In this document: positions 13,678 to 38,482 of the stretch, one piece after another
How positions within the stretch are numbered: position 1 is the first letter of the stretch
How the letters are laid out: each line of letters opens with the position of its first letter
Virus record (IMG/VR): IMGVR_UViG_3300042882_000264
Span: 1-38,482 of that record
Reading direction: 5' to 3' (one strand)
Source: a virus
DNA length: 38,482 bases
Notes under the pieces: model-generated
Database searches by the model: none
The model's input: the letters and a program-made list of their open reading frames with translations, nothing else
What the model was told of the DNA's origin: nothing
Program-made: the position numbers and the translations under genes

Positions 13678-15303
13678 TCAGAACAGCGGCTCTTGAAGTT
13701 CTGCCAACTCTTCGGCGGTGAGCCGCTTTGGCTGGCTATAGTCGAGTTGTACAATGTCGTGGAACTTGTCATTCTGCTTCACCTTTATCCTGCGCGGCTT
13801 GATCCAGTGGTCGCACTCTTGCATGGCGTCTTCAGTGGTCATGGCAGACGCGCCTAGCGATGGAATCCGCTTCTGGTATCGCTCCGCAGCATAGCCTCCG
13901 TGGTCAGGGCATAGCCATTCGGACACTTTGATCAGGCCGCAATAATATGTGACGCGGATGCTGTCCGGCTTGCCTTCCTTGCGCCAGCGGGAATAGCCCA
14001 CATCATTAACGTCAACCCATTCGGCCTGTACCTGTGTGGAGATCATCGCGCCAGAATATGCCTTCGTTCCGTGATTGAACTGCGGAGGCGGGAATTCATG
14101 GCCGCACTCAATGCACACTCTAACGGCGGCATGATTGACAGTCAAACATTCCGGACATTTCTTGACCGGGGCTTGACCGTCTTCGGTGCGGCCTTTGATC
14201 TTCGGCTTGATCTTGTCGATGAAGCCGTGGCGCATCACGTTGTCGCCATAGTCCAGCACCAGGCAGTTCTCTTTCCCCGGCGCAATGCGTGTGCCGCGTC
14301 CGACAATCTGGATGTAAAGGCCAGTGCTTTCGGTGGCTCTTACAATTGCCACAAGATCGACATGCGGGACATTGAATCCGGTAGTCAGCACGTTCACATT
14401 GATCAGGCACTTGCTCTCGCCACGCCGGAACCGCTCGATCTTGTCGGTGCGTGCGCTCATGCCATCGGAACCAGTCACGACATCCGCCTCGATCCCATGC
14501 GTCTCGAACTCGGCGCGGAGCAACTCGGCGTGATTGACGCCGCAAGCGAAGACTAACCACGCTTTTCGCTCCGCACCATAGCGCACGATTTCTGCAACTG
14601 TTTCTGTTACCAATTCCGGGTCTGATGCAGCCTTGGCTAGTTCGCTCTCGATATACTCTCCGCCGCGCTTGCCGACGTTCGATAGGTCGATGGTCTTGAC
14701 GCCGCTCTTGCTAATCACCGGGGCCAGGAATCCCTGCTCCATGAGATCGGCAACCGGAATATCGTATGCAATGCCGTCGAAGATCGCGTTGTCGCCTTCG
14801 TGCAGCCAGCCACTATCGAGCCGGTAGGGCGTGGCCGTAAGACCGACCACCTTAACACCGCGATTGCATATGCGAAGGTCCGAGAGGAACTTGTTGTAGC
14901 GTGTGCCGTAGTTCTTCGGGATCAGGTGCGCCTCGTCCACGATTACCAGATCAGGCGTTGGGACCATCTGATAGGCCTTCTTGTGGATCGACTGAATGCC
15001 CGCAAATGTGATCGGCTTCCGCAGCACCTTCTTCTTGAGGCTGGCGCTATAAAAGCCGACATCTGCCTCGGGATAAAGCGCCAACAACTCACTGGCGTTT
15101 TGCTCAAGCAACTCCTTGACATGCGTCAAGATCAGAACGCGCGTGCCGGGATAACTCATCGCATCCTTGATCAGGTGCGCGATGATCAGGCTCTTGCCAG
15201 AGCCAGTCGGAGCGACGATGATCGGGTTGTCGCCCTTCTTGTCTGACCAATAATTGTATAGACCGTCAATGGCAGCGCGTTGATAGGGGCGAAGTTCAAG
15301 CAT
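13678..15303 (-). CDS. SSL2-like superfamily 2 DNA helicase
   Basis: A 541-residue helicase of the RAD25/SSL2 type. Visible motifs: 'LRPYQRAA' (Q motif, residue 4), Walker A 'APTGSGKS' (31-38), DEAH (123-126), 'TATPYR' (156), 'TTGFNVPHVD' (307) and motif VI 'QIVGRGTRIAPGK' (332-344). A zinc ribbon follows (Cys383, Cys386, Cys397, Cys400). It probably unwinds DNA in replication or recombination, and the adjacent VRR-NUC nuclease suggests a helicase-nuclease pair. The ATG overlaps the upstream transporter stop by eight bases. Confidence 0.92.
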   Translation of the reverse strand: MLELRPYQRAAIDGLYNYWSDKKGDNPIIVAPTGSGKSLIIAHLIKDAMSYPGTRVLILTHVKELLEQNASELLALYPEADVGFYSASLKKKVLRKPITFAGIQSIHKKAYQMVPTPDLVIVDEAHLIPKNYGTRYNKFLSDLRICNRGVKVVGLTATPYRLDSGWLHEGDNAIFDGIAYDIPVADLMEQGFLAPVISKSGVKTIDLSNVGKRGGEYIESELAKAASDPELVTETVAEIVRYGAERKAWLVFACGVNHAELLRAEFETHGIEADVVTGSDGMSARTDKIERFRRGESKCLINVNVLTTGFNVPHVDLVAIVRATESTGLYIQIVGRGTRIAPGKENCLVLDYGDNVMRHGFIDKIKPKIKGRTEDGQAPVKKCPECLTVNHAAVRVCIECGHEFPPPQFNHGTKAYSGAMISTQVQAEWVDVNDVGYSRWRKEGKPDSIRVTYYCGLIKVSEWLCPDHGGYAAERYQKRIPSLGASAMTTEDAMQECDHWIKPRRIKVKQNDKFHDIVQLDYSQPKRLTAEELAELQEPLF

Positions 15304-15814
15304 TGATTTTGCGATTATAAATCATCAAGAAGATTGCAGCGATCACAGTCATCCAAAGCTTGCCGACCAGCTGGCCCGCGATGAAGTCCAGAGAGCCAAA
15401 AGCCACCCACAGGAACACGGTCGAATCGACAGCAGCTCCCACAACACCCGACGCCAGCACGGCTAAGCTTAGATTGCGCTTCCGAAGCGGGGTGTAGACA
15501 GATAGGTCCATCAGTTCCGCAATGGCAAAAGCCGTGGCACTGGCGATGACAAGCGCAGGCGGGGCCACCAGGATTGACAGGATCACACCGAATGCAATTG
15601 CGGTTAATGCCCAGCGTATACCAAGTACCTGCTGGACTGCATCTCTTAAAACGAGGGCAGCGCCAATCATAAGCACACCAGATGGTGCCATCAATCCAAA
15701 ACCGACCGGGATCAGGCACGGCCCATCAGGGACGCAAACGGTGCCAGCGTTGCTGATCAGCCAGTTGGCGGCAGGTATGGTTGCAAGATATGCAGTAAAA
15801 GCCAGAATCTTCAT
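15296..15814 (-). CDS. yhhQ: VUT/YhhQ-family transporter (7-deazaguanine precursor uptake)
   Basis: A 172-residue, strongly hydrophobic protein with about five or six membrane spans. 'GALVLRDAVQQVLG', 'AFAIAELMDLSVYTPLRKR' and 'GAAVDSTVFLWVAFG' fit the VUT (DUF165) family, whose YhhQ member imports preQ0/preQ1 (family knowledge). The ATG at 15814 overlaps the stop of the upstream DpdA-like gene by four bases, and this start drops a 12-residue extension that would run into that gene. The tight coupling supports joint action: uptake of the modified base, then its insertion into DNA. Confidence 0.82.
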   Translation of the reverse strand: MKILAFTAYLATIPAANWLISNAGTVCVPDGPCLIPVGFGLMAPSGVLMIGAALVLRDAVQQVLGIRWALTAIAFGVILSILVAPPALVIASATAFAIAELMDLSVYTPLRKRNLSLAVLASGVVGAAVDSTVFLWVAFGSLDFIAGQLVGKLWMTVIAAIFLMIYNRKINA

Positions 15815-16491
15815 GCTATCAGTTCCATTTGTTGATGTGTTAAAGTCCATTTAGCAGGGCATTGCACGGCATCAATGACACGCGCCATTGCTTCTGGACA
15901 CGAGTTTGTGTCCTTATAGTTTCGAGCCACATTCACACTGTCAACACTAGCAAAAGGCCATCTTTTGCCAGTCACAGCCATGCCGCGCAGCATATGAATC
16001 CAAGGAATTGAACCGCGTTTCGACAATTGATTAAATGCCTCATCAGTCCTTCGGCACCAACTATCGGAGCCAACTTGCCAGAATGCTCCCGAGGAGCCGA
16101 AACACACGCGCGAAAAACGCTGGGCGAAGTTCAGAAGCACATCAATCGGTTCCGCCATATGCCAAACAGGCGCTCCGAATGAAGCAGGAAAGGGCCATTC
16201 ATCCACAAGCCTTGCGTTGGCATCTACATCGCCGTCGATTACGTCAGGGATGACAGCCCAGTGTGGATGACCAAGGCGCGGCTCAAGCCACTTGTAGAAC
16301 GCAGTCCAGTTCACGACCTTGCCTTTTGTGTACAGGCTGAATGCGCCATTGTCCCACATCACTGACTGGCCGATGCGAAGGCATATATCAGCATCTGCCG
16401 GATGCGCGAATGAAACGCAAAACGACTTTCCTGCCATCTTCCAGAGTTGGTCGCGCGGCGTCAAAGGCGTTCCGTGATAGTGAATTGTCAC
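15811..16491 (-). CDS. dpdA: DpdA-like DNA-guanine transglycosylase
   Basis: A 226-residue protein with tRNA-guanine transglycosylase-like motifs in order: 'MWDNGAFS' (Asp47, matching the TGT substrate Asp), 'IPDVIDGD' (83-88), 'VCFGSSGAFW' (129-138), 'IHMLRGM' (165-171) and 'SVDSVNVARN' (182-191, Asp184 matching the TGT nucleophile before a 'xxxARN' motif). Short phage members of this family exchange guanine in DNA for a 7-deazaguanine base. It is shorter than tRNA enzymes and lacks an evident tRNA-binding region. The match is my own motif alignment, not a database result. The stop overlaps the transporter start (ATGA). Confidence 0.78.
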   Translation of the reverse strand: MTIHYHGTPLTPRDQLWKMAGKSFCVSFAHPADADICLRIGQSVMWDNGAFSLYTKGKVVNWTAFYKWLEPRLGHPHWAVIPDVIDGDVDANARLVDEWPFPASFGAPVWHMAEPIDVLLNFAQRFSRVCFGSSGAFWQVGSDSWCRRTDEAFNQLSKRGSIPWIHMLRGMAVTGKRWPFASVDSVNVARNYKDTNSCPEAMARVIDAVQCPAKWTLTHQQMELIA

Positions 16492-17411
16492 TTGAACTCC
16501 CTGCCCTTGTTCCGCACAATCTCGCCGTCTTCGTTGATGTAGTCGATCCAGTCCTCTCCGCTATCATGCACGGGCAGTTTCACCAGCGCCGGATTGTAGA
16601 TGTGATCACCGCAGCCGCTGCGCTGGTCGATCTCATCGAGTGCCTTCTTGTGCCTGGCGCAGGACCAACCTTCAGCCTCTGCCGTGGAGAAGGCGCATGT
16701 GCGGCAGTTCAGTTCCGCTGCACCGTCTCCGTGGCAGATCGAATGATAAGGGCAGAACTTGCATTCAAACCATGCCGGATCGTTACTGATGCCAAGCGGT
16801 GGCCGTTCGGTCGATATGATCGTTCTGGCCTTCTCGATAAGCCCCTCTGCAAAGGCATGATCGACCTTCAACCGCTCGGCATAAATCTCATCGGTGTTCT
16901 TGTTGACAGAAATGAACAGGCAGCGATCTAGCCCGCTCAAGTGCATTCCGATCTGGCACTGTGCATAATAGATCGGCTTTGCCTTCTCGACGCCGAGATT
17001 ACACAGCACCTTGAAATACTTCTCGCTCATGGTCTTCACTTCGAGCGTGTGGACCTTGGTGCTTTCCGGCAAGCCTTCAACAACTCCGTCCAGGCTCAAC
17101 GCGAAATGCCCGCCAACTGCCGTATATCGGAACTGCTGGCCTGTTGCCGGATCGCGATCCCAGACCGTGCAACCGGCGGCGCGCAGGTTCTGGATCACCC
17201 GCCCTTCCTCGCGTTCTCCAGTCTCGAAGAGACGCAAGATGCGGCCTTCGTGCTTCTCGGTATGAGTCCACCGGAATTGATACCAAAGCGCGCGAGCACA
17301 AGTGTTGCCGATCTGCGACCCGCCAAGATGCGGCCTGTGTGCGTTGCGGCGGTTGTCTTCGTATCGCTGATAGATCGCCTTTACGATTGGCGATGTCATG
17401 TCGAGTTTCAT
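16488..17411 (-). CDS. Cas4-like Fe-S exonuclease (PD-(D/E)XK)
   Basis: A 307-residue nuclease with the RecB/Cas4 pattern: 'GGSQIGNTCARALWY' (Cys38), 'ALSLDGV' (Asp108), 'TLEVKT' (Glu124, Lys126), 'YYAQCQIGM' (Gln151), then Cys217, Cys220 and Cys226 in 'CKFCPYHSIC'. One early and three late cysteines are the Cas4/AddB 4Fe-4S arrangement. Cys236, Cys239 and Cys250 are extra and may bind zinc. It probably supplies 5' end resection for phage recombination with the DUF669 and RecA-like proteins. The stop overlaps the dpdA-like start. Confidence 0.85.
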   Translation of the reverse strand: MKLDMTSPIVKAIYQRYEDNRRNAHRPHLGGSQIGNTCARALWYQFRWTHTEKHEGRILRLFETGEREEGRVIQNLRAAGCTVWDRDPATGQQFRYTAVGGHFALSLDGVVEGLPESTKVHTLEVKTMSEKYFKVLCNLGVEKAKPIYYAQCQIGMHLSGLDRCLFISVNKNTDEIYAERLKVDHAFAEGLIEKARTIISTERPPLGISNDPAWFECKFCPYHSICHGDGAAELNCRTCAFSTAEAEGWSCARHKKALDEIDQRSGCGDHIYNPALVKLPVHDSGEDWIDYINEDGEIVRNKGREFK

Positions 17412-25438: not shown

Positions 25439-25632
25439 CACCCGACGAACTCATCCAATGGCGCACCTCGGTTGCCCTATCAAAGCGCAAGGCAGCAGAG
25501 GCCCTTGGCCTCGCACGCAACACGTTCCGAGCATACGAAACCGGCAAGCAGCCGATTCCGCGATACATCGAACTTGCCGTTAGGGCAGTTCAGAAAACCG
25601 ACAATAAAAAGGACAGCAATGCTGACCTATAA
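25435..25632 (+). CDS. Small XRE-type HTH protein
   Basis: A 65-residue protein with 'MTPDELIQWRTSVALSKRKAAEALGLARNTFRAYETGKQPIPRYIELAVRAV', a clear XRE fold. ATG overlaps the HNH stop (ATGA) and the end overlaps the methyltransferase by 14 bases. It may regulate the methyltransferase, like the C proteins of restriction-modification systems, but no restriction gene is seen. Confidence 0.8.
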   Translation: MTPDELIQWRTSVALSKRKAAEALGLARNTFRAYETGKQPIPRYIELAVRAVQKTDNKKDSNADL

Positions 25633-26938
25633 GCTTATTCCAACCGCCGACCTCATCCCGTACGCCCGCAACAGCCGGACGCACTCCGAGGCGCAGGTCA
25701 CCAAGATTGCGTCCTCGATCAAGGAGTTCGGGTTCATCAATCCGGTGGTGACGGACGGCAAGAACGGCATCGTGGCGGGCCACGGGCGCGTCCTGGCGGC
25801 AAGCAAGCTGGGACTGAAGGAAGTGCCGTGCGTTGAAGCAAGCCACCTCACGGAGGCCCAGAAGCGCGCGTATGTCATTGCCGACAACCGGATGGCGCTC
25901 GATGCCGGATGGGACATTGATCTGCTGAAAGTCGAACTCGGCGACTTGCAGGGCATGGACTTCGACCTAGCCCTTACCGGCTTCGATCCCGGCGAACTTG
26001 AGAACTTCCTAGCCGAGAAGACCGAGGGCCTGACTGATCCAGACGCGGTGCCGGAAACGCCAGCCAATCCGGTGACGGTGCTGGGTGATGTCTGGGTGCT
26101 GGGCAAGCACCGGCTGATGTGTGGCGACAGCACCAGCCAATCATCTTTTGATACGCTCATGGCTGGTCTTCGTGCTGACATCATATTCACAGACCCACCG
26201 TATGGAATGAGCTATGGTGGGGGTCGCGCTTCTGGCAGCACAAAAAAAGGCGCTTTAGTAAAAGCCCACGGCATGATTCTGAACGATGACCTGCAGGGAG
26301 ATAGCTTGATTGAGTTGGTGCGAGATGCACTCGCAACATCAATTGCTGCGACCAAAAACGGTGCTCCGCTTTATGCATGTTTTACATGGCGAACTTACGC
26401 TGAGTTTGAAGCTGCCTTGGAGCAATTAGGAAGAGAGGTTAAGGCATGCATCGTTTGGGACAAAAAAAGTATTGGTCTTGGAAATTCGCACTATAGACCG
26501 CAGCATGAATTCATCTTTTACTGCGGAGGACAATGGCATGGCGACAAATCGCAATCTGATGTGTGGAGTTTGTCACGCGGAGCAACGGGTGCTTATGTTC
26601 ATCCGACACAGAAGCCGGTCGAACTTATTGAGCGCGCCCTTAACAACAGCAGCAAATCTGGCGATGTTGTCATAGATTGCTTCGGTGGCAGCGGCTCCAC
26701 TCTGATCGCATGCGAAAAAACAGCCCGCGAATCCCGCCTAATGGAACTCGACCCAAAGTATTGCGATGTCATCGTGAAACGCTGGCAGGAATTCACCGGC
26801 CACAAGGCAACGCTTGAATCCACCGGCCAGACATTCGAGGATGTCGCTTCCAACCGCTACGATTGGAAGAAGGACAGCGCCGCATCATATGACGTTGCCA
26901 TAGCCGAAAAACGCAAGGAACTCGAGGCCTCGACATGA
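25619..26938 (+). CDS. ParB-like plus DNA methyltransferase fusion
   Basis: A 439-residue protein. Residues 1-110 are ParB/Srx-like ('RNSRTHSEAQVTKIASSIKEFG', 'GHGRVLAASKLG', 'AYVIADNRMAL'). The methyltransferase has 'DPPYGM' (191-196) then 'FGGSGSTL' (about 355), the beta-class order, acting on N6-adenine or N4-cytosine. Target unknown. Bases about 26140-26720 are AT-richer than the ends, covering the catalytic and recognition part, which points to an internal swap. The ATG at 25619 was chosen; an upstream frame overlaps the HTH gene. Confidence 0.9.
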   Translation: MLTYKLIPTADLIPYARNSRTHSEAQVTKIASSIKEFGFINPVVTDGKNGIVAGHGRVLAASKLGLKEVPCVEASHLTEAQKRAYVIADNRMALDAGWDIDLLKVELGDLQGMDFDLALTGFDPGELENFLAEKTEGLTDPDAVPETPANPVTVLGDVWVLGKHRLMCGDSTSQSSFDTLMAGLRADIIFTDPPYGMSYGGGRASGSTKKGALVKAHGMILNDDLQGDSLIELVRDALATSIAATKNGAPLYACFTWRTYAEFEAALEQLGREVKACIVWDKKSIGLGNSHYRPQHEFIFYCGGQWHGDKSQSDVWSLSRGATGAYVHPTQKPVELIERALNNSSKSGDVVIDCFGGSGSTLIACEKTARESRLMELDPKYCDVIVKRWQEFTGHKATLESTGQTFEDVASNRYDWKKDSAASYDVAIAEKRKELEAST

Positions 26939-38077: not shown

Positions 38078-38421
38078 TTAAATGTTGCGACATGAATTCC
38101 GGCAAGCTGAAAGAGCCGGTGACGTTCCAGCGCCGCACCTTGACCAGCGACGGAGCAGGAGGCCAGACGGAATCCTGGGCCACCGTTTCCGGCGCACCGA
38201 CCCGCGCCTATGTGGCTCCGGTTGGCGGATCGGAGCGATTTGCCCATGACCGCACCGAGGCAACCGTTCGGTTGCGTCTTGTCGTGCGCTACACTTCTGC
38301 GTTGCTGGATTCAGACCGCGTGCAGATTAGGAACAAGGTCCACAACATCCGGTTTCTCGATAACATGGAGTTCGCCAACAAGTGGCTTCAGATCGACGTT
38401 GATGGCGGGGTTGCGGCGTGA
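38074..38421 (+). CDS. Head closure/head-tail adaptor (SPP1 gp16/HK97 gp9-like)
   Basis: A 115-residue protein with the adaptor pattern: 'KLKEPVTFQRRTLTSDGAGGQTESWATVSGAPTRAYVAPVGGSERF', 'RLRLVVRYTSALLDSDRVQIRNKVHNIRFLDN'. It closes the head and receives the tail. The ATG at 38074 overlaps the upstream stop; a second ATG at 38092 is possible. This is the full copy of the gene cut at the window start. Confidence 0.88.
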   Translation: MIKCCDMNSGKLKEPVTFQRRTLTSDGAGGQTESWATVSGAPTRAYVAPVGGSERFAHDRTEATVRLRLVVRYTSALLDSDRVQIRNKVHNIRFLDNMEFANKWLQIDVDGGVAA

Positions 38422-38482
38422 CGGATGTCAAGGTCGAGATCAAGGGGCTGAAAGAGGTCAATGCGGCCTTGCAAGCATATGG
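38351..38482. repeat. Right copy of the terminal overlap
   Basis: Matches 1-132 except A at 38477 (G at 127). It includes the end of the head-closure gene and the start of the gp10-like gene (GTG at 38418). Confidence 0.9.
38418..38482 (+). CDS. gp10-like gene, 5' end (copy of 68-616)
   Basis: The first 65 bases of the gp10-like gene appear again here and run off the window. The complete gene is at 68-616. The single mismatch (GCG to GCA) is synonymous for alanine's neighbour codon position only if read as GCG/GCA in frame. Confidence 0.8.
   Translation, partial: MTDVKVEIKGLKEVNAALQAY

Follow-up and report, generated by a model that had tools for sequence, protein, structure and literature searches.

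A two-gene phage cassette that probably couples import of a 7-deazaguanine base to its insertion in DNA

Phages that carry dpdA without any gene for preQ0 synthesis are an already known class, the DpdA-only phages (group 3) defined by Hutinet et al. in 2019, who proposed host preQ0 or uptake as the source of the precursor and noted YhhQ homologues with no correlation with any phage group (PMC6884629). Two such phages without preQ0 genes, Salmonella phage 7-11 (PMC6884629) and Pantoea phage MED16 (PMC8306585), contain dADG in their virion DNA at approximately 0.02% and 0.13% of the Gs, respectively, and the MED16 DNA is still cut by most of the enzymes tried (PMC8306585). Mycobacterium phage Orion, which has DpdA alone and whose host makes no preQ0, shows no modification, while deletion of dpdA in phage CAjan results in the loss of DNA modification (PMC6884629). 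Salvage of preQ0 by phages has been proposed within larger pathways in the Vid5 (PMC6266253) and EC151 (PMC8310023) papers, and preQ0 salvage has also been proposed for the bacterial dpd islands, about 9% of which carry YhhQ (PMC11888242). Note that the canonical role of the VUT/COG1738 transporters is the salvage of queuosine precursors (PMC11130926).

Here we analysed IMG/VR virus record IMGVR_UViG_3300042882_000264, positions 1 to 38,482, and we refer to this whole stretch of 38,482 nucleotides as the window. Both open reading frames of the original prediction, one for a DpdA-like enzyme and one for a YhhQ-like transporter, are present where they had been placed (Table 1), and chance is ruled out for both (phrog_887, E 2e-39; Vut_1, E 1e-10; phrog_4899, E 1e-39). 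The longest frame of the VUT gene starts at 15850 and encodes 184 residues, but its likely start is Met13 (ATG, 15814-15812), where several homologues also begin; with this start, the four-base overlap proposed for the two genes holds, and dpdA and VUT are likely to be translationally coupled through it. The VUT gene in turn overlaps the helicase gene by 8 bases. Along the minus strand, the gene for a single-strand-binding protein is followed by two small genes and then by the Cas4-domain exonuclease, dpdA, VUT, helicase and resolvase-like genes; these tight junctions, together with the gene order, therefore make the dpdA-VUT cassette part of a recombination operon. In Roseobacter phage CRP-901 (L157:4209-6005), the position upstream of the helicase that dpdA-VUT has in the window is occupied by an HNH endonuclease gene together with one small gene. 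This position may therefore serve to carry cargo genes.

Table 1. Features of the cassette and its neighbours in the window; the 9g residue numbers were counted along the profile alignment
Feature	Position	Strand	Evidence
Cas4-domain exonuclease, upstream neighbour	16488..17411	-	phrog_1990, E 8e-94; order conserved in relatives
GTGA overlap, upstream exonuclease stop / dpdA start	16488..16491	-	sequence
dpdA-like gene, base-exchange (TGT/DpdA-type) enzyme, 226 aa, GTG start	15811..16491	-	phrog_887, E 2.2e-39
Asp47 codon (MWDNGAFS), equivalent to 9g DpdA Asp72 (LDSGAF)	16351..16353	-	profile alignment
His111 codon, equivalent to 9g His141	16159..16161	-	profile alignment
His166 codon, equivalent to 9g DpdA His196	15994..15996	-	profile alignment
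Asp184 codon (ASVDSVNVARN), equivalent to 9g Asp215 (SCDS)	15940..15942	-	profile alignment
ATGA overlap, dpdA stop / VUT start	15811..15814	-	sequence; conserved Met of homologues
VUT/COG1738-family transporter gene, 172 aa from likely ATG at 15814	15296..15814	-	Vut_1; phrog_4899, E 1e-39
DNA helicase, downstream neighbour	13678..15303	-	phrog_16, E 3e-104; order conserved in relatives

The genome, of about 38.35 kb, is essentially complete, as had been claimed, because positions 1-132 are repeated at 38351-38482 (131/132 bases). IMG/VR classes the record as linear; it was probably the single mismatch in the repeat that put this complete genome with a circular map in that class. The genes identified are those of a siphophage, with terminase, portal, capsid and tail genes as well as replication genes, and the module continues across the ends of the record, from head closure at the end to neck at the start. 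A near-identity DNA search of phage records gave no match to the window. The host is likely an alphaproteobacterium, because the DpdA-family relatives found inside bacterial genomes are mostly from Rhizobiales and the CRP-901 helicase shares 64% identity with that of the window, despite a terminase whose closest relatives are from gammaproteobacterial phages. Elsewhere in the window, the gene at 25472-26938 joins a ParB-like domain to a DNA methyltransferase (phrog_498/620) and is possibly a second one for DNA modification.

The comparison of family profiles confirmed the assignment of the enzyme to the phage DpdAs. The profile of the window family matched that of the 9g, EC151 and 83AMN DpdAs (hhalign 99.6%, E 1.9e-23), so that the window enzyme is, at the level of sequence profiles, securely a distant relative of the phage 9g DpdA. 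Moreover, it shares phrog_887 with the DpdAs of 9g, 7-11 and MED16; the latter two are its closest tested relatives, with 32% identity (E 1e-21) to that of 7-11. The aspartates originally singled out, D47 and D184, as well as H111 and H166, show no variation in 34 homologues, whose identity goes as low as about 45%. Note that the 9g residue equivalent to H166, His196, is kept in DpdA, while DpdA2 is without it (PMC6884629). The window enzyme matched none of the Pfam families, none of the 34 homologues hit TGT (PF01702) or DpdA (PF23859) at E<=10, and neither of these two families was matched by the 9g DpdA itself. A direct HMM-HMM comparison of the family with the TGTs of the host bacteria found nothing, and a PDB sequence-profile search with the family returned no matches. 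The predicted structure is a barrel-like alpha/beta protein (pLDDT 84), for which the top Foldseek matches were TIM barrels (TrpA, ribulose-phosphate epimerase; E>=0.003), with TGT absent from the top 50. The putative link of the family to TGT thus comes from the 9g DpdA profile and from a published HHpred result for the MED16 DpdA (PMC8306585). Two variants were observed among the relatives: in two prophage loci (L098 and L101) DpdA is split over two frames, and in L025:9998-12126 two different DpdA paralogues adjoin, with no VUT.

The partner is a predicted six-helix membrane protein that passed the Pfam Vut_1 cut-off (42.4 bits against 27.2) but remained below those of the YhhQ equivalog PRK11212 (24 bits against 252) and of TIGR00697 (37.8 bits against 50.95). 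Thus, the description of it as YhhQ-like is right for the VUT/COG1738 type but, by curated score, not supported if read as YhhQ orthology. In a 70-row tree, where several long branches meet and where canonical means a full-length Vut_1 match with no dpd context, a 98/91 branch separates all the VUTs linked to DNA-modification genes, in phages and islands, from ten YhhQ-like VUTs of bacteria. With moderate confidence, this suggests a DNA-modification-linked VUT branch distinct from the canonical bacterial VUTs. Because the YhhQ cut-offs failed and the branch is separate, we infer the substrate from gene context alone. A PDB sequence-profile search with the VUT family gave no matches, and Foldseek of the model gave weak matches to ECF S-components and other membrane proteins (E>=0.27). 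The closest cellular VUTs, from Ensifer, Devosia, Microvirga, Bosea and Metarhizobium, each lie beside queC, and the nearest of all to the phage protein are those of a Devosia locus with VUT, queC, DndB-like and TGT-like genes (L137:3441-8269) and of an Ensifer locus with VUT, queE-queD-queC, DndB-like and TGT-like genes (L138:4705-9373). These loci look like bacterial Dpd-type islands.

The absence of synthesis genes from the window was upheld: QueC, PTPS/QueD, GTP cyclohydrolase I, QueF and Radical_SAM (QueE) gave zero Pfam matches over its whole length at E<=10, with working controls. With dpdA present, and folE, queD, queE, queC, queF and amidotransferase genes absent (in a search that did not extend to ArcS), the phage belongs to group 3 of Hutinet 2019, and in this there is no novelty. 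Some relatives without VUT carry QueD or QueE-QueD instead (L005, L024/L076, L032, L033, L040, L041, L087 and L098). Among the de-replicated loci of the DpdA tree, 42 had VUT, 8 had QueD/QueE and 0 had both (Fisher p 0.0017, ignoring kinship), and the QueD/QueE label needs at least 5 changes on the tree. In two of these loci (L032:9106-10669 and L033:2373-3936), a queE-queD-dpdA cassette sits between the same exonuclease and helicase, giving the order ssb-exo-queE-queD-dpdA-helicase-hjr where the window group has ssb-exo-dpdA-VUT-helicase-hjr. Of the genomic evidence, this replacement within one operon slot speaks most strongly for VUT as a supplier of a 7-deazaguanine precursor. QueC was absent from all the VUT-less virus records with QueD/QueE that were searched, and therefore the completion of preQ0 would be left to the host. 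A strict exclusion between VUT and synthesis genes as a general rule was rejected, since EC151, 83AMN, RHEph04 and Erebus have both, with a 9g-type DpdA.

The pair is recurrent. A VUT gene lies within 1 kb of dpdA in 54 of the 98 family loci (a count that includes near-copies), always on the same strand (54/54) and downstream in 48, which makes it by far the commonest neighbour of dpdA; reciprocally, dpdA adjoined VUT in each of the 16 loci that the VUT query, used by itself, picked out in IMG/VR. Pair loci were found in Ensifer, Agrobacterium, Devosia, Microvirga and Rhizobium genomes, in an Ideonella locus, in an actinobacterial MAG and in phages with two other DpdA types. The annotated phages with the pair or its equivalent include Rhizobium phages RHph_N3_2 and RHph_X2_30, Pam5, Escherichia phage Opt-719, Tbat1_6, Sinorhizobium phage phiLM21, StevieRay, Aoka and ReqiPine5. 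Of these, RHph_N3_2 has a DpdA of the window family, and M. smegmatis, on which StevieRay grows, reportedly has no preQ0/Q genes. In phiLM21 (L061:4123-5474), a VUT 67% identical to that of the window adjoins a PF23859 DpdA, a case of partner exchange, and in StevieRay (Mycobacterium), Aoka (Arthrobacter) and ReqiPine5 (Rhodococcus) the partner is phrog_15826, annotated as DpdA-like in two of the three. One VUT branch is thus paired with three DpdA types, namely the window family, PF23859 and phrog_15826. The possibility that the link merely reflects close relatives of one phage was rejected in view of this wide spread of hosts and DpdA types. As side observations, Mycobacterium phage Arib1 (L068:4980-5312), unlike its relative StevieRay, has a short VUT of 110 aa, and none of the genes in its 5-kb flanks is annotated as DpdA, which looks like a joint loss of the pair; and Pseudanabaena phage Pam5 (L002) is recorded as a cyanophage but encodes a cell-cycle regulator of the GcrA type, and its dpdA/VUT pair resembles those of alphaproteobacteria, so its host assignment may deserve a check.

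Taken as a whole, the genomic evidence makes it probable that the cassette works by import and insertion. During infection, VUT would be located in the inner membrane of the host and import a 7-deazaguanine as the free base, with preQ0 as the most likely candidate and preQ1 or the amide ADG as possible ones, raising the amount of free precursor in the infected cell. The coupled DpdA would then swap guanine for the imported base at certain sites of the phage DNA, by a transglycosylase mechanism with an aspartate nucleophile as in TGT. The modified base would mark the phage genome and could shield it against guanine-reading nucleases; by analogy with CAjan, protection of this phage from restriction is plausible. 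What counts against import and insertion is that the DpdA-only relatives that have been measured show trace dADG and little protection. The YhhQ cut-offs that VUT does not reach, the Foldseek result without TGT, and the QueC and TGT genes of most prophage hosts (see below) also speak against it. A shortage of precursor would account for these traces, and for the lack of modification in Orion. A further idea, which we put forward tentatively and hold to be unlikely, is that phages and Dpd islands share a VUT branch that evolved specially for DNA modification and that brings in not preQ0 but a different base, such as ADG or some further 7-deazapurine, which the short DpdA inserts directly; if so, DpdA-only phages would show only traces since the right precursor is missing.

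Rather improbable, in our judgement, is that DpdA uses host-made preQ0 on the phage DNA while VUT is a bystander or a transporter of something else, such as another purine or a vitamin. In about 44 of the 98 family loci, VUT is missing from the 1 kb around dpdA, VUT scores below the YhhQ cut-offs, and 7-11 and MED16 are modified, though weakly, with DpdA alone. Moreover, the hosts of the prophage relatives encode QueC in about 24 of 27 cases and TGT in all 27, so that import may not be needed there. Against this stand the position of VUT as the commonest neighbour, paired with three DpdA types, the genes for preQ0 synthesis that stand in its place within the same operon, and the queC and dpdA-like genes that adjoin the closest cellular VUTs. 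The hosts themselves offer a suggestive tie between the VUT form and the lack of QueC: 3 of 11 hosts with the VUT pair had no strong QueC match, compared to 0 of 16 others (Fisher p 0.056), and these three (G041, G053 and G055, with loci L074, L093 and L095) all have TGT and the VUT-form cassette.

That the pair instead boosts queuosine-type modification of the host tRNA during infection is very unlikely. The TGT ancestry, the PHROGs name of phrog_887 (queuine tRNA-ribosyltransferase) and the queuosine-precursor salvage by canonical VUTs (PMC11130926) would fit, but dADG occurs in the virion DNA of the relatives, DNA modification is lost on dpdA deletion in CAjan (PMC6884629), dpdA sits in a recombination operon and the enzyme has no Pfam TGT match; we therefore favour DNA as the target. 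Least credible of all is that the enzyme is in decay, or modifies so weakly that it has little effect. The traces in 7-11 and MED16, the split DpdAs and the apparent joint loss in Arib1 would suit this, but the window copy is intact with all its conserved residues and has three close relatives at 98-99% identity, with others intact at about 80%.

If import and insertion is the correct reading, a hypermodified genome would be reached with just one transporter and one base-exchange enzyme, about as few components as any known route needs, and the source of the precursor would be explained for many phages without synthesis genes. The identity of the phage DNA would then depend on free bases from the environment or from neighbours, and the pair would offer a simple two-gene tool for putting modified guanines in DNA. 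With VUT and QueE-QueD exchanged within one operon, nature provides a clean comparison of import and synthesis.

Finally, the original prediction stands as regards the DpdA, the type of the transporter, the absence of synthesis genes and salvage and insertion as the best reading, but YhhQ orthology is not supported, and phages without synthesis genes are a known class. As in the window, 7-11 and MED16 have a phrog_887 DpdA and no preQ0 synthesis genes (PMC6884629, PMC8306585); they have no VUT, whereas the window couples the transporter to dpdA, and the pairing is strong in this DpdA family even though YhhQ was uncorrelated with phage groups in Hutinet 2019. Enterobacter phage EC151 (PMC8310023) and Pantoea phage Vid5 (PMC6266253) also combine DpdA with a VUT-family preQ0 transporter, but, unlike the window, they add preQ0 synthesis genes (all four in EC151) and have a 9g-type DpdA (307 aa in EC151); the EC151 VUT is on a different branch from that of the window, in a tree without Vid5. 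Bacterial Dpd islands likewise have VUT near DpdA, but with DpdB/C, often restriction genes and queC/D/E, and a large DpdA of about 430-455 aa. Closest in layout are StevieRay (gp53-gp54), Aoka (gp38-gp40), phiLM21 (gp25-gp26) and Opt-719, where VUT and a DpdA-like gene adjoin or nearly so, with no synthesis genes seen in the flanks examined. Their DpdA subfamily differs from that of the window (phrog_15826 in StevieRay and Aoka, PF23859/phrog_1279 in phiLM21), except in Opt-719, where it is the same, and in the searchable papers, which did not include a 2024 MMBR review, the pair of these four phages is not discussed as a system. Because the pair recurs in many unrelated phages, the cassette represents a known disguise in compact form and not a new type of system. 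The idea of import and insertion is not new either: DpdA-only phages and uptake are in Hutinet 2019, and several isolates show the pair. What is added here is the recurrent, tightly coupled two-gene form, the interchange with QueE/QueD in one slot and the distinct VUT branch.
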